Assembly (NCBI RefSeq): GCF_008087625.1
Contig: NZ_CP042997.1
Coordinates: 5,580,001-5,644,000, forward strand
Source of the DNA: Aquisphaera giovannonii
GTDB taxonomy: Bacteria > Planctomycetota > Planctomycetia > Isosphaerales > Isosphaeraceae
DNA length: 64,000 nt
Reading direction: 5' to 3'
Shown here piece by piece: positions 26,031 through 35,857 of the stretch. A program made the translations under genes and the position numbers. Each line of letters opens with the position of its first letter. Position 1 is the stretch's first letter. The notes below the pieces were generated by a model, which worked only from the letters and a program-made list of their open reading frames with translations, had not been told where the DNA came from and did no database searches.

Positions 26031-26103
26031 GCCACCTTAGCTCAGTCGGCAGAGCGCAGCTTTCGTAAAGCTGAAGTCCAGGGTTCGAGTCCCTGAGGTG
26101 GCT
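26031..26103 (+). tRNA. tRNA-Thr (anticodon CGT)
   Basis: A 73-nt cloverleaf. The acceptor stem GCCACCT pairs with AGGTGGC (discriminator T). The D-arm is GCTC-AGTCGGCA-GAGC, the anticodon arm CAGCT-TTCGTAA-AGCTG with anticodon CGT, and the T-arm CAGGG-TTCGAGT-CCCTG. CCA is not encoded. A nearly identical copy is at 27674-27746; the two differ only in the D-loop. Confidence 0.95.
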
Positions 26104-26128
26104 CTCGATCGAGGCTCGACGGTCGGGC

Positions 26129-27454
26129 TCAGATCCGGTTCGGCGTCGGGTCGGTGAGCGGGGCCCGGATGAAGCCGGAGTCCTCCGGGGCCTCGTAGTC
26201 GATGCCGGCGAGCTCGGGCGTCGCGACGGGGACGTGGCCGCGGACGCGGCTGTCCATGGCGGCGTCGAGGATCCCGGTCGTCAGCAGGGTCCGCTGGATG
26301 GGGTAGGGGGGCTTGCCGGTCCGGAAGAAGTCCTCGATGCGGAGGGCCAGCGGGTCGAAGAAGCGGGCACCGGGCGGGGGGGGGAGGTAGGTCAGGGTGG
26401 AGGCGATCGTCTCATGGCCCTTGGCGTCCTCGGTCCGGACGGCGACGGTGCCGTCCTGGACGTGGCCGTTGAGCAGCAGGACGGTGCCGCGGAGGCCGTC
26501 GGCGTACTCGACGAGGAAGGCGACGGGCTTCCCCACGTCCCGGCAGTTCTGGCGGATGTCGCCGACGTTGACCGTCCGGCTGCGGCCGAGGGCGTGGCGG
26601 AGCAACTCCCACGACCAGAGGCCCTCGTCGCCGGCCTTCCACACGGCGTCGCCCTCCAGGCAGGTGACGGCCTTCACGCCCTGCGGCCTGCCCCTGCGGG
26701 CCCGCCGTTCGGCCATGCACTGGAGGATCTCCAGGCCGTGGAAGCCGTAGGGCTCGGTGGGGCCGTAGAAGGCGGCGAGGATGTCCCGGAAGGGCCGGCC
26801 CAGGGGGATCTCCAGCTCCGGATAGCGCCAGGTGACCGGCAGGCTGGAGCCCGCCATGAACGGCACGCCCAGGGCCTTCGCCTGATCGACCATCCGGATC
26901 GCCTCGGCCCGGTCGTAGCTGAGGTGCTTGTCGTTGAAGACCGGGACGACCCGGCCGGAGGCCCGGAAGACGTCGAGGATCCGGCGGAAGAAGGCGCCCC
27001 GGGGATACTGCCGCTGGAGCTTCTCGTTGTCTGGGTAATTCCCGTGCTCGCCGATGAGGAGCACGGCGTCCACCGCGAGCGTGCCGGTGCCGAGCGTGAG
27101 GGCGTCCTCGATCGTCGGGCTGAGCCGGACGCCGTACTTCCTCGCCTTCGCCCGGCCCAGGTCCGTGGCGTCGGGAGTCTGGTCGATGAACAGGCTGGCG
27201 ACGTCGAAGCCGGGCTTGTGGAGCGCGTCGCCGACGTCGTCGCCCTCCCGATAAACCGGGAACCCGTCCAGGAACCGGCCGACGATGTGATAGGCGTGCG
27301 ACAGGTAGAAATACGTGGTGGCGATGGCGGCGATTCGGGGCTTCCGGCCGGCCTGCCCGACCGTCGCCGCCGGCGCGATGCCGGGGAGGAGGAGCGTCCC
27401 GGCGGCCGCGGATTCCAGGAAGTGACGTCGGGAGGGGGCATGCGTCGGCTTCAT
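26129..27454 (-). CDS. Secreted (Tat-like leader) protein of unknown function, paralog of 29622-30986
   Basis: A 441-residue exported protein. The leader KPTHAPSRRHFLESAAAG resembles a twin-arginine signal (SRRHFL). The mature part opens RKPRIAAIATTYFYLSHAYH, a beta-strand-led Rossmann-like start, and has VDAVLLIGEHGNYPDNEKLQ and RVVPVFNDKHLSYDRAEA. These are reminiscent of, but not clearly, Gfo/Idh/MocA proteins. This is a family seen in planctomycetes as I recall; no reaction is known to me. The start at 27454 has GGAG 9 bases upstream. Its 3' end lies 25 bases from a tRNA-Thr gene, and its paralog lies beyond the second tRNA copy. Confidence 0.75.
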   Translation of the reverse strand: MKPTHAPSRRHFLESAAAGTLLLPGIAPAATVGQAGRKPRIAAIATTYFYLSHAYHIVGRFLDGFPVYREGDDVGDALHKPGFDVASLFIDQTPDATDLGRAKARKYGVRLSPTIEDALTLGTGTLAVDAVLLIGEHGNYPDNEKLQRQYPRGAFFRRILDVFRASGRVVPVFNDKHLSYDRAEAIRMVDQAKALGVPFMAGSSLPVTWRYPELEIPLGRPFRDILAAFYGPTEPYGFHGLEILQCMAERRARRGRPQGVKAVTCLEGDAVWKAGDEGLWSWELLRHALGRSRTVNVGDIRQNCRDVGKPVAFLVEYADGLRGTVLLLNGHVQDGTVAVRTEDAKGHETIASTLTYLPPPPGARFFDPLALRIEDFFRTGKPPYPIQRTLLTTGILDAAMDSRVRGHVPVATPELAGIDYEAPEDSGFIRAPLTDPTPNRI

Positions 27455-27673
27455 GGCGGGTGACTCCATGGATCGGCGGGGGGAGCAGCGGGGCAGGCGT
27501 CGAGGCGTGCGGTCCGAGCCTGTCCTCGCCACAATACTCGACCCACGCGGGAGATCCAACCCGGGAGCTGTCGCGGGCGCGTGTCCCAACTTCGTGCGGT
27601 CCTGCGAGATCTTGCCGTTGATCCCCGCCGCGCCGTCGGCTAGCATGGTGTCCGGTCGTCGCAAGACCCGGCC

Positions 27674-27746
27674 GCCACCTTAGCTCAGCTGGTAGAGCGC
27701 AGCTTTCGTAAAGCTGAAGTCCAGGGTTCGAGTCCCTGAGGTGGCT
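27674..27746 (+). tRNA. tRNA-Thr (anticodon CGT), second copy
   Basis: A 73-nt cloverleaf with the same acceptor (GCCACCT/AGGTGGC), anticodon arm (CGT) and T-arm as the copy at 26031. Only the D-loop differs (AGCTGGTA against AGTCGGCA). Two same-anticodon genes 1.6 kb apart suggest local duplication. Confidence 0.95.
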
Positions 27747-28130
27747 CTCCTATCCTTCCCTCGCCGCGAGATGCCCGCTCGCGGCGATGTTGCGCACGGG
27801 CCGCGAATGGACGAAGCCAGTCTGCTGCCTCGTCGCGGGCGGTTTGCTGTGCGTCGCCGTGGGTGATTGCTTCCAATTGACGGGGTTGGGGCGTTGTGTC
27901 CGGAGGCGGCGAGTGCCGCGCGTTCCGGACATCGACTTCATCTGCCGTGGCCGCGTCCGGCTGCGTCTGCCTCGCCTGGTGCCGTTCTCGTACAATCGAG
28001 GTGGGACGTCCGGGTGCTATGCGGCCAAGACCGTCGGAGCTCGGCAGGGGCACCCGGTGCAACGGCCTCGGTCACGAAGGGGAACACCCGAATTCGTGAT
28101 CTGGTTCGCGGTGAGGAGTGGAATGGCGCC
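27747..28130. other. Gap between tRNA-Thr and the PIN unit; no supported gene
   Basis: About 380 bases. The frames here do not look coding. A GAGGAG lies 12 bases before the next start. This is the left edge of the stretch that sets the second tRNA/secreted-protein pair apart from the first. Confidence 0.45.
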
Positions 28131-28829
28131 ATGGATCCAATCGATCTGGTCTCGCGGTGGAATGCCTGGTGCGTCACCGGTTCGCCCAATCAGATTGATG
28201 ACACGTTAACACGACTCGATGCCGGCCTGCCCGGCGGCTGGCAACGACTGACGGAGGAGCAGGTCCGCGAGCGGCATCTGGATCGGTTCCAGGGGCCGCT
28301 CAGCGCTCGACGCCCCGTCTGGTATGCCACGAATAGCCCGTCGAACCATGGCGGTGCGAATGTAAGCCTGGACAGGATCAGAGACACGGACTTGCGCGGT
28401 GGATTGGTCCTGTTCAACGGCCCGGCGTACCCCGTCATCACCCCGCAATCGGCCGGCGAATGGGACCGGATCGTCGGCTTCCTCGAGGGGTCGATCATCC
28501 CCGCGGCCCGCGCTGCGGGCGCGAATCCGAAGGCTCCCACTCCGGAGGAGATCTTCCTCGATCAATTGCCATCTTCTGTCGGCGACGCCCTCCGGAGGTT
28601 CTCTCGCGGTGCTCGGAAGGTGTTGCCGCTGAATGCTATGGAGACCGAATCCTGGAATGGGTTTGTGATCGCCGCCTTCCGCTCGAGGGCGATCATCGAC
28701 TCCCGACTCCTCGTCGAGTGGCTGGTCGTGGACGGCTGGAAGCGTGACGCGGCGGAGTCGCTCGATTCTCAACTATCCGAACAGTGCCTGCTGCTGTCGC
28801 GGTTCGCGGAAGAGGTGCTGGCTGTATGA
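28131..28829 (+). CDS. Unknown protein coupled to a PIN-like nuclease
   Basis: A 232-residue protein that I do not recognise. It has a short N-terminal start (MDPIDLVSRWNAWCVTGSP), then PVWYATNSPSNHGGANVSLD and GLVLFNGPAYPVITPQSAGE, and two helical segments (EWDRIVGFLEGSIIPAARAA, SLDSQLSEQCLLLSRFAEEV). No signal peptide or membrane segment is seen. It ends with ATGA overlapping the PIN gene, so translation is coupled. By position it could be the antitoxin or partner of that nuclease, but it is larger than typical antitoxins and has no visible DNA-binding motif. Codon usage is less GC-extreme than the flanking secreted-protein genes. Confidence 0.7.
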   Translation: MDPIDLVSRWNAWCVTGSPNQIDDTLTRLDAGLPGGWQRLTEEQVRERHLDRFQGPLSARRPVWYATNSPSNHGGANVSLDRIRDTDLRGGLVLFNGPAYPVITPQSAGEWDRIVGFLEGSIIPAARAAGANPKAPTPEEIFLDQLPSSVGDALRRFSRGARKVLPLNAMETESWNGFVIAAFRSRAIIDSRLLVEWLVVDGWKRDAAESLDSQLSEQCLLLSRFAEEVLAV

Positions 28830-29584
28830 TCGCCATCCCTGAGGCGGCGGCGAGCATCGCGGAACAGCCTGCTCCGGTCATCATCCTGGATACGTGCTCA
28901 CTCCTCGACGTTTTCCGATGGGTAGATAGCGAACGCGAGCCGAGGGCCTCGGCGGATGAGATCCGGGCCGCGTCATTGCTCCTTCGGGGGGCCGCCAGCT
29001 CCCCCGTCTCCTTCCATCTGGTCGTCCCCGAGCTCGTGGAGGTCGAATACGGAAGGAAGGCGCGGAATCTCGAGGATTCATTTCAGGGCTGGATCAGGGA
29101 CCATGATAAGTGCGGGGGCTGGTTTGCGGAGGCGGCCCCGTGGATCGGCATTGCTCTGCAGGAGCCCCTGAGGATCGAACCGCTCAGGATCTCGGAGAAG
29201 TGCCACGAACTCGCGGACAAACTCCTTGAGAAGGCGATCGTGCTGAGTCGAGACGTCGCCTGTCTGAACAGGGCGATCGGCAGGTTGATCGGCAAGAGTC
29301 CCCCGTGCCACCTCAGGGACGAGGTTAAGGATGCGATCAACCTCGAGCAGGCGCTGGAGCTGAGCCGCCGACTCGGGCTGATCGGTTCCTCGCCGGGGCG
29401 GGTTTTCATAAGCTCAAACACCAGGGATTTTGGAGACGCCAAGAGGCGTTCTCGACTCCACCCGGATATCGAGCGAGATTTCCAGGAAGCCGGCCTCGAG
29501 TATTTCACGTCTCTGGCCGCCGCGCTCGGATCGCTGCAGTCGAGAAAAGGGCTCCAGCGCTCGACGGAATCTCACGCCGAGTGA
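28826..29584 (+). CDS. PIN-like ribonuclease domain protein
   Basis: A 252-residue protein resembling large PIN-domain proteins (DUF4935-like). The N-terminal strand VIILDTCSLLDVFRW holds the first acidic residue. VVPELVEVEYGRKARNLE gives the conserved Glu. LRDEVKDAINLEQALELSRR gives the next acidic set, and RVFISSNTRDFGDAKRR matches the late SNTxDF strand. PIN proteins cleave RNA, often as toxins of TA systems. The start at 28826 overlaps the preceding stop (ATGA). Here the partner is a 232-residue unknown protein and not a short VapB-like antitoxin, which is unusual. Confidence 0.7.
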   Translation: MIAIPEAAASIAEQPAPVIILDTCSLLDVFRWVDSEREPRASADEIRAASLLLRGAASSPVSFHLVVPELVEVEYGRKARNLEDSFQGWIRDHDKCGGWFAEAAPWIGIALQEPLRIEPLRISEKCHELADKLLEKAIVLSRDVACLNRAIGRLIGKSPPCHLRDEVKDAINLEQALELSRRLGLIGSSPGRVFISSNTRDFGDAKRRSRLHPDIERDFQEAGLEYFTSLAAALGSLQSRKGLQRSTESHAE

Positions 29585-29621
29585 GTAGACGATTGATCCC
29601 GCGGCACTCCGCCCGATCGCC

Positions 29622-30986
29622 TCACAGCCGATTCGGAGTCGGATCCGTCAGCGGCGTGCGGATGAAGCCGGAGTCGGCGGGCGCCTCGTAGTCGATCGCG
29701 GCGAGTTCCGGGGTGGCGACCGGCGCGTGGCCGCGGATGCGACTATCCAGGGCGGCGTCGAGGATGCCGCCGGTGAGGAGCGTCCGCTCGACGGGGTAGG
29801 GGGGCTTGCCCGACCGGAAGAAGTCCTCGATGCGGAGGACCAGGGGGTCGAAGAAGCGGGCGCCCGGCGGGGCGGGGAGGTAGGTCAGGGTGGAGGCGAT
29901 CGTCTCCCGGCCCTGCGAATCCCGGGTCCGGACGGCGACCGTGGTGTCGTCCACGTGGCCGTTCAGGATCATCGCCGTGGCCCGCAGGCCGTCTTCGTAC
30001 TCGACCACGAAGGCGTTCGGGCCGCGGAGGATCGTGGACGCGTCGCGGACCGAGGGCGTGGCGAAGTCGCGGCAGTTCTGGCGGACGTCCCCGGGGTTCA
30101 CGGTGTGGCTGCGGCCCAGGGCGTGGCGGAGCAGGTCCCACGACCAGAGCCCCTTGTCTCCGGCCTCCCAGACCTCGGGCCCCTCCAGGTAGGTGACCGA
30201 CTTCACGCCCTGGGTCTTACCCTTGCGGTCGCGGCGCTCGGCCATGCACTGGAGCGTCTCCAGGGCGTGGAAGCCGAAGATCTCCAGGTTCCCGCGCGAG
30301 GCGACGAGCACCTCCCGGAAGGGCCGGCCCAGGGGGATCTCCAGCTCCGGCAGCCGCCAGGTCACCGGCAGGCTGGAGCCCGCCATCAGGGGGACGCCGA
30401 GCGCCCGGGCCTGGTCGACCATCTGCTGACCCTCGGCCCGGCTGTAGCTGAGGTGCTTGTCGATGAACACCGGCGCGACCTTGCCCGACGCCCGGAAGAC
30501 GTCCAGCACCTTGCGGAAGTACGCCCCTCGGGGATACAGCTTCTGGAGCTTCTCGTTGAGCGGGTAGTCCCCGTGCTCCGCGATCAGGAGGACGGCGTCC
30601 ACCGCGAGCTTGCCGGTGCCGAGCGTGAGGGCGTCCTCGATCGTCGGGCTCAGCCGGACGCCGTACGCCTTGGCCTTCGCCCGGCCCAGGTCCGTCGCGT
30701 CCGAGGCCTGCTCGATGTACAGGCTGGCGACGTCGAAGCCGGGCCTGTGCAAGGAATCGCCGCGCCCCTCCGCGGCCGGGCCGCCCGCGTAGTGCGGGAA
30801 CCCGTCCAGGAACCGGCCGACGATGTGGTACGCGTGCGAGAGGTAGAAGTACGTGCTCGCGAGCGCCGCGACCTTCGGCCGACGCGGCGGGTCCTCCGTC
30901 CGCGATGCGCCGAGCGCCGGGGCGAGCATCATCCCGGCGGCGGTGGACTCCAGGAACCGGCGGCGGCTGGCGGGGGGCGTGATCAT
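29622..30986 (-). CDS. Secreted (Tat-like leader) protein of unknown function, paralog of 26129-27454
   Basis: A 454-residue paralog, sharing most blocks: YFYLSHAYHIVGRFLDGFP, LSPTIEDALTLGTGKLAVDA, VLLIAEHGDYPLNEKLQKLY, KVAPVFIDKHLSYSRAEGQQ and LMAGSSLPVTWRLPELEIPL. The leader MITPPASRRRFLESTAAG again resembles a Tat signal. A short insertion near the C-terminal third (TPSVRDASTILRGPN) distinguishes it. GGGAG lies 5 bases before the ATG. Its 3' end abuts the PIN unit, whereas the first copy's 3' end abuts a tRNA. Confidence 0.75.
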   Translation of the reverse strand: MITPPASRRRFLESTAAGMMLAPALGASRTEDPPRRPKVAALASTYFYLSHAYHIVGRFLDGFPHYAGGPAAEGRGDSLHRPGFDVASLYIEQASDATDLGRAKAKAYGVRLSPTIEDALTLGTGKLAVDAVLLIAEHGDYPLNEKLQKLYPRGAYFRKVLDVFRASGKVAPVFIDKHLSYSRAEGQQMVDQARALGVPLMAGSSLPVTWRLPELEIPLGRPFREVLVASRGNLEIFGFHALETLQCMAERRDRKGKTQGVKSVTYLEGPEVWEAGDKGLWSWDLLRHALGRSHTVNPGDVRQNCRDFATPSVRDASTILRGPNAFVVEYEDGLRATAMILNGHVDDTTVAVRTRDSQGRETIASTLTYLPAPPGARFFDPLVLRIEDFFRSGKPPYPVERTLLTGGILDAALDSRIRGHAPVATPELAAIDYEAPADSGFIRTPLTDPTPNRL

Positions 30987-31271: not shown

Positions 31272-31581
31272 GTGACGGATGGGGCCGGGCGAGTTGGGGA
31301 GGGTCTGCTCACCCGGCACGACGAGACGCTGCACCACCTGGTCGCCCACCGGCTGGACCAGCGAAGCGGCACTCCGGTCCGAAGCGAAGGCACGCCTTCA
31401 AGATGTCCTCAACGCCAAGGACGCGCCCGACGGGGAAGTGCTGGCCCTGCGGCACTTCGACCAACTCACCCAGGCTGAGGCCCTGGAGGTGATGGGCATC
31501 AAGCGGAACGCCGCCGGCATGCATTCTCTGCTGGCGCGGAAACGGCTTAAAGACGGCCTGAGCAGCCTGCCCGAGGGCTGA
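31272..31581 (+). pseudogene. ECF sigma factor remnant next to a kinase gene
   Basis: Two pieces of a planctomycete kinase-linked ECF sigma factor survive. In one frame (31272 on) LLTRHDETLHHLVAHRLDQR matches the N-terminal segment before region 2. In another frame (to 31581) AKARLQDVLNAKDAPDGEVL, ALRHFDQLTQAEALEVMGI and ARKRLKDGLSSLPEG match region 4. The part between, covering region 2 and the linker, is missing and the frames do not agree, so the gene is broken. The kinase gene begins 14 bases later. Confidence 0.65.
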
Positions 31582-31594
31582 ACGAGTTCCAATC

Positions 31595-34500
31595 ATGAGC
31601 GAGATGGATTCCGGGCCCGACCTGTTGAACGAGCTGGCCCATGAATTCGCCGAGCGAGTCCGACGCGGCGAGCGTCCTTCCCTGACCGAATACACCGGCC
31701 CGCACCCTGAGCTGGCCGACGAGATCCGCGACCTGTTCCCGGCGCTGGCGGCCATCGAGCAATTCGGCTCAGTCGGGAGGGCGTCGACCGGCCCGCACGC
31801 CGGGACCGCGACCTGCGACGGCACGGCGCCGCGGCAACTGGGGGAGTACCGCATCCTCCGCGAAGTGGCCCGCGGCGGCATGGGGGTCGTCTACGAGGCG
31901 GTCCAGGAGTCGCTGGGGCGACACGTGGCGCTCAAGGTGCTCCCGTTCCAGAGGCTGGCCGATCCCAGGCACCTGGAGCGGTTCCGGCGGGAGGCGCACG
32001 CGGCGGCCAGGCTGCACCACTCCAACATCGTACCGGTCTTCGGGGTCGGTGAGCAGGGGGGCGTCCACTACTTCGCGATGGAATTCATCCGCGGTCGCGC
32101 CCTGAGCAGCGTGCTGCACGAGCTGAGGGGCCGGCGCCGGGCCAAGGGGCTTGATGCGGGGGTGACGGCCGAGGGTTCGTCCTCGGCCCTCGCGGGAAGG
32201 CGCGGTTGGGGGCTGGCCGTCACGCTGGCCGAGGGGCTGGCGACCGGCCGTTTCCCGGGCAGGGACGACGTGCCTCGCGACTCCGACGGGGGCGAGTTGG
32301 CCCCCCGTCTCGACCCGGCCCGCGACGGTTTCATCGGGCCGGGCCCATCCGACGCGATCGTCTCGGGCGACGAGCTGGACCTGAGTGCCCAGTCGGACGC
32401 GCGGTATTTCCGCAGCGTGGCCCGGGTGGGCGTCCAGGTCGCCGAGGCCCTGGAGTATGCCCACGAGCAGGGCGTCTTGCACCGGGATATCAAGCCGTCG
32501 AACCTCCTCCTCGACACCCAGGGCACCGTCTGGGTCACCGACTTCGGCCTGGCCAAGGCGGAAGGGACCGGCGAGCTGACCGAACCGGGCGACCTCCTGG
32601 GGACGCTGCGGTACATGGCGCCGGAGCGATTCCGGGGCCAGGCCGACCGTCGCAGCGACATCTTCAGCCTCGGCCTGACCCTCTACGAGATGGTCACGCT
32701 GCGGCCGGCCTTCGCCGCCACCGAGCGGGTGCAGTTGATCGAGCGGATGCTCCACAACGAGCCGCCGCGGCCGCGCAAGCTCGACGGGCACGTCCCGCGC
32801 GACCTGGAGACGCTGATCCTCAAGGCCATCGCCAAGGAGCCGGGCCGCCGCTACCAGACGGCGGGCGAGCTGGCCGAGGACCTGAAACGCTTCCTGGCCG
32901 ACATGCCGATCCTGGCGCGGCCCGTCACCGTGCCGGAACGGGTCATCAAGTGGGCGAGGCGGCGGCCGATGATCGCGGGCCTGGCCGTAGCCGTGCACCT
33001 CCTGCTGGCGGCGCTCCTGATGACCGGGATCTGGTCCTACGTCCAGATCAACCGGTCGCTCGCGATCGCCAGGGCAGAGGGCACCAGGGCCGTGGAACTG
33101 GCCCGATCGGAGGCCCAGGCCAATGCCAAGGCGCGGGAACAGACCAGGATCGCCAGGGATCGGGTCGAGGACCTGAGGCGCAGGGATTACATCGACCGCG
33201 TCAACCTGGCCTACCGCGAGTGCCTGGCCAACAACGTGGCCCAGGCCTTGAAGCTCCTTGACGGTTGCCCGGAGGATTTGCGCGGTTGGGAGTGGGCCTA
33301 CGTGAGCCGCCAGTGCCATCTGGACCTGCACACCTACCGCGAGCCTGGAGCGGCGATCAATGCCGTGGCCTTCAGCCCCGACGGCCGACGCCTCGCCATC
33401 GCGTCGGGCAACCCCTGGTCGATCCCGGGGGGGACGGGTGATCTCGCCGTGCGGGACGTGGCGACCGGCCGGGAAGTCTTCGCCCATCGCGGCCTCGCGG
33501 GCGGCATCCGCGCGGTGGCCTACAGCCCCGACGGCCGCTGGCTCGCCACGGGCCATGCGGCGACCTTGACGGTGTGGGATGCCCTCACGGGGAAGGAGCG
33601 CTACCACACGACCGATCCCGGTCACTTCGCGCTGCTCAGCCTGGCCTACAGCCCCGACGGCCGGCGGATCATCGCAGGTTACGGATCATTCGATAAATAT
33701 ACGATCGGATATGCCGGTTATGCCAGGCTCAGGGACGCCGCGACGGGGGACGAGCTCATCGACCGATTCCCGGGGAAGGGAGGCGGCATCATGAGCGTGG
33801 CGTTCAGCCCCGACGGCCAACAGGCGGCCCTGGCAACGGGCCCGAGGGTGGAGGTCTGGGACCTGGCGAGCCGCAAGCTGCTCCGTCCGCTGATGGCGCA
33901 CACCGGCCGCGTCGTCTACGCGGTGGCCTTCAGCCCCGACGGGAGATACCTCGCCTCGGGAGGATGGGACAAGACCGTCCGACTCTGGGATCGCGCCACC
34001 GGCGCCGAGCTCCGGACCTATTCCGGCCACGAGGGCTTCGTCCGCGGCCTGGCCTTCAGCCCCGACAGCCAGCGGATCGTCTCGGCGAGCGACGACAGGA
34101 GTCTCAAGCTGTGGTCGTTGGGCTCCGATCGCGAGCTGGCCACCTTCCACGGCCATCAGAGCTCCGTCCAGTGCGTCGCCTTCGGCCCCGACGGCTCCCA
34201 GATCGCCTCGGGGAGTCAGGATCAGACGGTCAAGGTCTGGTCCGCCACACCGAATCTCCAGCTCACCGTCCGGGGACACGTGGGCCAGGTCCGGGGCGTG
34301 GCCTTCAGCCCCGACGGCCACGCAGTCGCCTCGGGCTGGGCGGAGGGAGACCTCGAGCTCTGGGATCCGGCGACGGGCGAACCGATCCTCTCCCTTCAAC
34401 GGCAGAGTTCCTTCGGCGCGGTCGCGTTCAGCCCCGATGGACGCCACCTGGCGACTTCGGGATTGAACGAGAGGTTGAAGGTCTGGGATGCCACCACGGG

Positions 34501-35857
34501 GAGGCAGCTCCTCACGCTGACGGGGACAAGCCGCGAAGTCATCCGGCCGTGCGTGGCGTTCAGCCCGGACGGCCGCTACCTGGCGCAGGCCGATAACGAC
34601 CGGTCGGTGAAGGTGTGGGATGCCACCACCGGAGGGAGGGTCCAGACCCTCCGCGGGCACTCGGCGGCGGTCTGTGCCGTGGCGTTCAGCCCCGACGGGC
34701 AGACGCTGGCTTCCGCGGGCGACGATGAGACCGTGAAAGTGTGGGCCGTCGGGAGCGGTCAGGAGCTCCTTACCTTCCGAGGCCACATGGCCCCGGTCTT
34801 CAGCGTGGCGTTCAGTCCCGACGGGCATCGGCTCGCCTCGGCCGGCGGCAACTCGCCGTATTTCCAGGCCCTGGACGCGGATAGTGATCGGGGCGGTCGG
34901 GAGCTCACCGCCGCCGGCGGCGACTCGCAGCACTTCGGTGAGGTGCACGTCTGGGATCCCTCCACCGGCCGCGAGCTCTACCAGCTCCGGGGGCACACCG
35001 ATGCGGTCCTGGGCGTCGCGTTCAGCCCCGACGGCCGGCGCCTCGTCACGGCCAGCGATGATCAGACCATCAAGCTTTGGGACACGGCCACCGGCCAGGA
35101 GGTCTTCGCCCTCAGGGGGCACCTCGCCGCGGTTCGCAGCGCGGCGTTCAGCCCCGACGGCCGGCGCATCGTGTCGGGGGGCAGCGATTGGACCGCGAAG
35201 GTCTGGGACCTGGATTCGAGCACGTCCGAGGTCCTGTCTCGCCGCGAGGCCGTGGCCCAGGCCGCATCCGGCGAAATGTTTCTGGCGGTCGAACGCTGGG
35301 ACCAGGCGGCCGCCGCGCTGACCCGAGCCCTGGAACTGAAGCTCGACAATGCCCGGACCCGGCTGGCGCGGGCCCGAGCCTTTTCCGGCATGGGCCACTC
35401 TCGGGAGGCCGAGGCCGACTTCTCCAGGGCCCTTGAGCTGACGGCGAGGAACGCGAATAAGTACCACGATGTCGCCTGGTTGCTGGCCACGTACCCGGAT
35501 CCCAACCTCCGCGATCCGGCGCGTGCGGTCGAACTGGCCAGGAAAGCCGTCGATCTGTCGCCCAATGAAGGAACGAACTGGAACACGCTGGGGATCGCAT
35601 ACTACCGGGCCGGCGACTGGAGGGCGGCGATCGACGCCCTGACGAACTCGATGGAACGGGGCTCCTGCCGGGGCGAGGGCTTCAGCGCCTTCTTCCTCGC
35701 CATGGCCCACTGGCAACTCGGGGACGAGTCGCGAGCGCTCTCCTGGTACGACAGGGCCGTCGAGTGGATGGACGGAAGGAAGTCAACCGATGAGGAACTC
35801 GCCCGCTTCCGTGCCGAAGCCGCGGCCTTGCTGGGAGTGAAAGACAGGAGCGACTGA
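31595..35857 (+). CDS. Ser/Thr protein kinase with 14 WD40 repeats and TPRs
   Basis: A 1420-residue membrane kinase. The N-terminal ~80 residues form a kinase-associated helical lead (LLNELAHEFAERVRRGERPS). The kinase domain has VARGGMGVVYEA (about 88-99), VALKVLPF, HRDIKPSNLLLD (about 295) and DFGLAKAEG (about 316), so catalytic residues are complete. A ~90-residue insertion sits in the hinge. One membrane segment (AVAVHLLLAALLMTGIW) is near 463-479. About 14 WD40 repeats (AFSPDGRRLAS...VKVWD type) follow, enough for two seven-bladed propellers. The C-terminus has TPR-like helices. The kinase faces the cytoplasm and the repeats would be on the other side. Substrate unknown. Confidence 0.92.
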   Translation: MSEMDSGPDLLNELAHEFAERVRRGERPSLTEYTGPHPELADEIRDLFPALAAIEQFGSVGRASTGPHAGTATCDGTAPRQLGEYRILREVARGGMGVVYEAVQESLGRHVALKVLPFQRLADPRHLERFRREAHAAARLHHSNIVPVFGVGEQGGVHYFAMEFIRGRALSSVLHELRGRRRAKGLDAGVTAEGSSSALAGRRGWGLAVTLAEGLATGRFPGRDDVPRDSDGGELAPRLDPARDGFIGPGPSDAIVSGDELDLSAQSDARYFRSVARVGVQVAEALEYAHEQGVLHRDIKPSNLLLDTQGTVWVTDFGLAKAEGTGELTEPGDLLGTLRYMAPERFRGQADRRSDIFSLGLTLYEMVTLRPAFAATERVQLIERMLHNEPPRPRKLDGHVPRDLETLILKAIAKEPGRRYQTAGELAEDLKRFLADMPILARPVTVPERVIKWARRRPMIAGLAVAVHLLLAALLMTGIWSYVQINRSLAIARAEGTRAVELARSEAQANAKAREQTRIARDRVEDLRRRDYIDRVNLAYRECLANNVAQALKLLDGCPEDLRGWEWAYVSRQCHLDLHTYREPGAAINAVAFSPDGRRLAIASGNPWSIPGGTGDLAVRDVATGREVFAHRGLAGGIRAVAYSPDGRWLATGHAATLTVWDALTGKERYHTTDPGHFALLSLAYSPDGRRIIAGYGSFDKYTIGYAGYARLRDAATGDELIDRFPGKGGGIMSVAFSPDGQQAALATGPRVEVWDLASRKLLRPLMAHTGRVVYAVAFSPDGRYLASGGWDKTVRLWDRATGAELRTYSGHEGFVRGLAFSPDSQRIVSASDDRSLKLWSLGSDRELATFHGHQSSVQCVAFGPDGSQIASGSQDQTVKVWSATPNLQLTVRGHVGQVRGVAFSPDGHAVASGWAEGDLELWDPATGEPILSLQRQSSFGAVAFSPDGRHLATSGLNERLKVWDATTGRQLLTLTGTSREVIRPCVAFSPDGRYLAQADNDRSVKVWDATTGGRVQTLRGHSAAVCAVAFSPDGQTLASAGDDETVKVWAVGSGQELLTFRGHMAPVFSVAFSPDGHRLASAGGNSPYFQALDADSDRGGRELTAAGGDSQHFGEVHVWDPSTGRELYQLRGHTDAVLGVAFSPDGRRLVTASDDQTIKLWDTATGQEVFALRGHLAAVRSAAFSPDGRRIVSGGSDWTAKVWDLDSSTSEVLSRREAVAQAASGEMFLAVERWDQAAAALTRALELKLDNARTRLARARAFSGMGHSREAEADFSRALELTARNANKYHDVAWLLATYPDPNLRDPARAVELARKAVDLSPNEGTNWNTLGIAYYRAGDWRAAIDALTNSMERGSCRGEGFSAFFLAMAHWQLGDESRALSWYDRAVEWMDGRKSTDEELARFRAEAAALLGVKDRSD

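Follow-up and report, generated by a model that had tools for sequence, protein, structure and literature searches.

We analysed a stretch of 64,000 nucleotides (the window; G000:C1:5580001-5644000) from the 10.5-Mb genome of Aquisphaera giovannonii. Table 1 gives the coordinates of a 1.45-kb unit of two genes, here named A and B, and of the features around it. The two open reading frames and the ATGA overlap that joins them agree with the description in the earlier note on this DNA.

Table 1. Genes and features at the A-B locus (positions in the window)
Feature	Position	Strand	Remarks
Gene A	28131..28829	+	232 aa; ATG 28131, TGA 28827-28829; predicted control partner (antitoxin, immunity or sensor); unnamed family
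Gene B	28826..29584	+	252 aa; ATG 28826, stop ends 29584; PIN nuclease (PIN_12/DUF4935 group), predicted RNase effector
ATGA overlap, A stop/B start	28826..28829	+	from sequence; translational coupling inferred
tRNA-Thr (CGT), copy 2, left neighbour	27674..27747	+	context only
tRNA-Thr (CGT), copy 1	26031-26104		
Extra DNA relative to first tRNA-paralog unit	about 27750..29620	.	repeat search; flanking direct repeat not found

The surrounding DNA (26031-30986) is a tandem duplication of a unit consisting of tRNA-Thr(CGT) and a paralog of ∼450 aa. In the first unit the tRNA and the paralog are nearly gapless, as had been noticed before, at 24 bases by our count (26105-26128; 25 in the earlier note); the corresponding gap of the second unit measures 1,874 bases and contains A-B. 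The second secreted paralog lies to the right of A-B on the opposite strand, 37 bases past the B stop codon. The two paralogs are 75% identical to each other and begin with what appears by eye to be a Tat-like signal. No Pfam family matches them at E ≤ 0.001, although 40 of the 45 genomes of the family contain relatives. Further to the right, a kinase-WD40 gene (31595-35857) is preceded by a 100-aa ORF (31279-31581) that corresponds by eye to no more than the C-terminal portion of an ECF sigma factor and may be a remnant.

The extra DNA had been taken for an insertion beside a tRNA gene, and our results speak against an insertion that is recent or tRNA-targeted. In the congener G002 both tRNA-Thr genes and both paralogs of the window recur, and A-B occupies the same site, again 37 bases from the paralog. 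A recent insertion was rejected on this ground; the shared site indicates entry of A-B before the divergence of the two species, or exchange at a fixed position. An island integrated at the tRNA was also rejected: a repeat search did not detect the tRNA end a third time beyond B, and there is no integrase between the tRNA and the paralog, where A and B fill the space. A tRNA is present within 1.5 kb at 4 of the 34 loci with A (the window, L039, L050, and L123), so nearness to a tRNA is not a rule for A-B. In a scan of 30 paralog loci for an empty site in other genera, no tRNA-Thr was seen in flanks of up to 1.5 kb, which are too short to reach the known tRNA in G000 and G002; no empty site came to light.

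For protein A of the window, Pfam, PADLOC, and NCBIfam gave no match at E ≤ 1, which bears out the earlier view of a 232-residue protein free of recognised domains. None of 14 A proteins gave a Pfam match better than E 0.05 or a known antitoxin DNA-binding domain, and five members compared with PHROGs gave no match at E ≤ 0.1. A sequence search against solved structures yielded no relative (best E 0.043). Phage records held no relative of A, and the viral contigs scanned yielded no relative. The A family seems to be undescribed in the sources searched; a literature search of open-licence PMC papers (including passages of PMC2701414, PMC7159879, and PMC8195603) returned no description of the A-B pair.

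The alignment of 31 A members shows W175 in all of them, and W37, P124, W197, W203, L211, and L222 in at least 90%. A single-sequence structure model of A (mean pLDDT 39) gives only a hint of the fold, which would combine strands with helices in the N-terminal half and be helical in the C-terminal half. In G002 the A frame is open far upstream (L040:8514-9533) and might continue into a fused N-terminal extension of ∼125 aa.

Against Pfam, B of the window gave one weak match, to PIN_12 (PF16289, DUF4935) over residues 19-202 (E 4.1e-5), with a score of 24.5 bits against a curated cut-off of 32 bits. The same model matched 10 of the 11 B family proteins tested at E ≤ 0.1 (best E 7.6e-15). In the B alignment (27 rows), D22, C24, E74, R153, D169, and N198 are invariant, and position 201 is D in 25 rows and E in 2. 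Four conserved catalytic acids are expected of the PIN nuclease fold, and D22, E74, D169, and D201 make up that acidic set, which makes metal-dependent nuclease activity most likely for B, probably with RNA as the target. The earlier assignment of B as a large PIN protein is supported: every relative, or almost every one, retains the catalytic acids, and the PIN_12 match is weak for this copy but stronger in the family. A sequence search against solved structures gave nothing better than E 0.14 for B, and its single-sequence structure model reached a mean pLDDT of 33. PADLOC 2.0.0 assigned 0 families to A or B of the window, S. meliloti, and G016 copies.

Other members of the PIN_12 group were also encountered. 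Relatives on Aeromonas, Photobacterium, and Vibrio plasmids are longer than B and are not accompanied by A. A second PIN_12 gene in the genome of the window (G000:C1:6245379-6245873; L061:1396-2016; 206 aa, E 5e-10) is likewise overlapped by an upstream ORF, of 180 aa and different from A, and this nuclease group may accordingly have more than one kind of partner. Longer relatives of B, with no annotated A gene, are also present on two Rhizobium plasmids (L173 and L175); genes for a Shedu nuclease and an Abi family protein lie nearby.

We searched 397 Planctomycetia genomes with one core A and one core B protein at E ≤ 1e-4, and obtained matches in 17 genomes for A and in 24 for B. All of the A genomes except G136 are among the 24 B genomes, and in the eight B genomes missed by the A search, a profile search of the fetched stretches places A directly upstream. 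A, or part of it, is directly upstream of B in 24/24 genomes with B (a frameshift divides A in G041, and the contig end truncates it at one of two loci in G519), and 24 of the 25 genomes with A have B. When all 34 loci with A were examined, B or a fragment of B was directly downstream in 32. The two exceptions are a Fischerella plasmid with an intact A and G136 with a truncated A; conversely, B-like proteins without A occur at L036-L038, L056, and L054, the last at a contig end. The truncated A of G136 (family f11; L090:9142-9630) is flanked by what appear by eye to be the end of an IS3-like transposase gene on one side and a Phd-VapC pair on the other.

The junction between A and B was measured at 15 loci, the window included, with the start codons of both genes picked by eye and with G041a excluded for its broken A. 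It is a 4-base overlap at 10 loci (9 of the 14 other than the window), a 1-base overlap at one, and a gap of 2 to 5 bases at four. The distance matrices of A and B for 22 loci are correlated (r 0.69; none of 5000 permutations equally high), a correlation that shared ancestry alone could produce, and 9 of the 22 loci have the same nearest neighbour in both matrices. The same two genes in the same order in so many genomes are an observation far beyond chance, and the coupling of A and B is real. The two genes are tightly coupled, in agreement with the earlier note: rare co-occurrence elsewhere had been named there as a finding that would speak against its reading, and A is adjacent in every one of the Planctomycetia genomes with B.

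We propose with moderate confidence, from the features described above and below, that A-B is a solitary, mobile module, toxin-antitoxin-like or of the abortive-infection type, with B as a putative RNase effector and A as its control partner. RNase activity, toxicity, binding of A to B, neutralisation by A, and a trigger of any sort are all predicted parts of the mechanism that we infer. The two proteins would come from one message, A being translated first and B by re-initiation at the ATGA overlap; A would then bind B and restrain the RNase. Disturbance of A by phage, stress, or loss of the locus would free B, and B, once free or activated, would harm the cell as a PIN-fold RNase.

Within the class, A-B is found mainly in families f1 and f3, with single cases in f2 (G425 and G464), and a profile search of 294 genomes drawn from the phylum was positive only for the genome of the window itself. 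Outside the class, the pair is present on plasmids of Sinorhizobium chiapasense and S. meliloti, and A alone on the Fischerella plasmid. Base composition at the third codon position also sets the pair apart: GC3 is 76% in A and 77% in B, compared with a minimum of 79.4% and a median of 91.5% among the 29 other called window genes of at least 200 aa. At 16 of the 21 loci with five or more comparison genes, no gene of the region is lower in GC3 than A, a contrast that is exaggerated because these genes were picked by a codon model that favours typical composition.

The pair is evolving faster than its flanks. At the shared site in G000 and G002, A is 51% and B 44% identical, and the flanking paralogs are 84-86% identical. 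Between G423 and G507 the values are 55% for A and 63% for B, against 79% for a neighbour gene. G008 and G025 make a weaker case (A 78%, B 70%; flanks 91% and 78%). A housekeeping pair for RNA processing, composed of a PIN nuclease and a cofactor, would account for copies that keep the same site across genera, such as those of G423, G507, and G569 beside a presumed pyridine-nucleotide oxidoreductase gene. We regard this explanation as improbable, given the rapid divergence, the frequent breakage of B, and a presence in only 24/397 genomes of the class and 1/294 drawn from the phylum.

Decay of the two genes was counted at 30 loci where both lie inside the contig, which leaves out the contig-cut L048, L054, and L121, the B-less L058 and L090, and the A-less PIN_12 loci L036-L038 and L056. 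B is broken at eight of them (L040, L041, L042, L047, L050, L053, L083, and L089) and A at one (L047, where B is broken as well), so that the discordant loci stand at 7 to 0 for an intact A with a broken B (exact p 0.016). In G569 (L083:10159-11747), B is split by an insertion of ∼1.6 kb with a transposase-like ORF, IS66-like by eye, and the upstream A is intact. Errors of assembly can mimic frameshifts in draft genomes, but A and B are similar in length and such errors should strike both equally often. Programmed frameshifting of B was considered and rejected, as the positions of the breaks differ between loci except for two near profile position 155 (L050 and L089), where no common slippery motif was seen by eye; decay or assembly error is the likelier origin of the breaks.

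The one-sided decay of B is what one would expect if the effector were costly and its partner harmless. The roles do not follow from gene order alone and could be reversed, A being toxic and B silencing it, for example by cutting its message. Loss of B should then be harmful, yet A is open at 7 of 30 loci where B is lost, and it occurs alone on the Fischerella plasmid. We consider a reversal of roles very improbable.

We compared the genomic neighbourhoods with known defence systems. On the S. meliloti plasmid, A-B follows genes for a cyclase, an E1-E2 protein, a JAB protein, and a 2TM-SAVED effector, which amount to a complete CBASS operon by PADLOC models, and RelE/ParE and VapC genes are nearby. 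On the S. chiapasense plasmid, A-B faces a Mokosh cluster (MkoA, E 2.4e-225; MkoB, E 3.6e-39). For the planctomycete loci, 146 of 157 neighbour genes from 30 loci were scanned with PADLOC (11 genes longer than 900 aa were dropped), together with 93 of 94 control genes from 18 randomly chosen stretches, of which one was left without any gene. Among the best 25 of 70 families, no family had more than three members near A-B (mad2, three; mad6, HEC-01A, and protein kinase models such as PD-T4-6, two each); the control genes gave one or two members for nine families. As the neighbour figures cover those 25 families, the two sets can be compared only approximately. The Pfam families of the neighbours are mostly of ordinary cell functions, with AAA_21 in two among the best 25 of 145. 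Around the 30 planctomycete loci, defence genes were not clearly enriched. The defence-island argument holds for the two Sinorhizobium plasmids only, and the neighbouring defence genes that the earlier note had suggested looking for were found there and not as a clear excess in planctomycetes.

The direct adjacency of the Sinorhizobium copies to CBASS and Mokosh operons would also suit the main alternative, namely that A and B together act against phage as an effector complex, with A as the sensor or RNA-targeting subunit that B requires. The size of A, larger than usual antitoxins, and its Trp-rich conserved C-terminal part (W175, W197, and W203) point the same way. However, the planctomycete copies have no clear defence context, and A is intact at seven of the eight loci with a broken B, where an activator left without its enzyme should decay too; this last point is not decisive. 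We judge the effector complex to be unlikely, although less so than the two alternatives above.

The toxin-antitoxin-like or abortive-infection reading draws on the linkage of the genes, the A-first order, the PIN residues, the decay of B, fast evolution, low GC3, and the CBASS and Mokosh adjacency. Set against it are the size of A, which is large for an antitoxin and in which no DNA-binding antitoxin domain was recognised, the lack of clear defence enrichment in planctomycetes, and the presence of A without B in Fischerella and G136. The earlier suggestion of a toxin-antitoxin or defence cassette with an unusual, large partner is still the best reading, A being large and of an unnamed family; the defence part of it is narrowed, known defence operons adjoining just the two Sinorhizobium plasmid copies. 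Tentatively, A-B may be the first example to be recognised of a distinct class of mobile conflict modules built on a PIN nuclease, with a partner of ∼210-245 aa that lacks a DNA-binding domain and serves as both inhibitor and trigger sensor, distributed over planctomycetes, rhizobia, and (partner only) a cyanobacterium. If the proposal is true, a family unnamed in Pfam, NCBIfam, PADLOC, and PHROGs would have a testable function in controlling its nuclease partner, and annotators could recognise a further toxin-antitoxin or abortive-infection cassette in what is now "hypothetical protein plus PIN domain protein".

In its anatomy A-B is like a toxin-antitoxin pair, being a two-gene operon with the partner upstream of the putative toxin and linked to it across genomes. 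The closest comparison is the VapBC type II system, which likewise has two overlapping genes, the partner first and the PIN nuclease second, and is mobile. Unlike VapBC, B is ∼230-250 aa long and belongs to the PIN_12 group, and A is ∼210-245 aa long. VapB antitoxins usually carry an AbrB, RHH, Phd, or HTH domain, none of which was recognised in A; since this defining DNA-binding domain was looked for and not found, we do not file A-B as VapBC. Most relatives of B match PIN_12 (PF16289, DUF4935) with the catalytic acids kept, and B of the window falls below the family cut-off. The fold of B is known, as is the Pfam family of the B group; A appears to be without a name. Passages of PMC2701414 describe PIN genes with unrelated partners (DUF433, UPF0175, and others) that comparative genomics predicts to be antitoxins, mostly small DNA-binding-like domains such as DUF433 of 70-80 aa. 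Compared with the partners in those passages, A, in which no DNA-binding-like domain was found, is also an unrelated partner of a PIN gene, but about three times larger.
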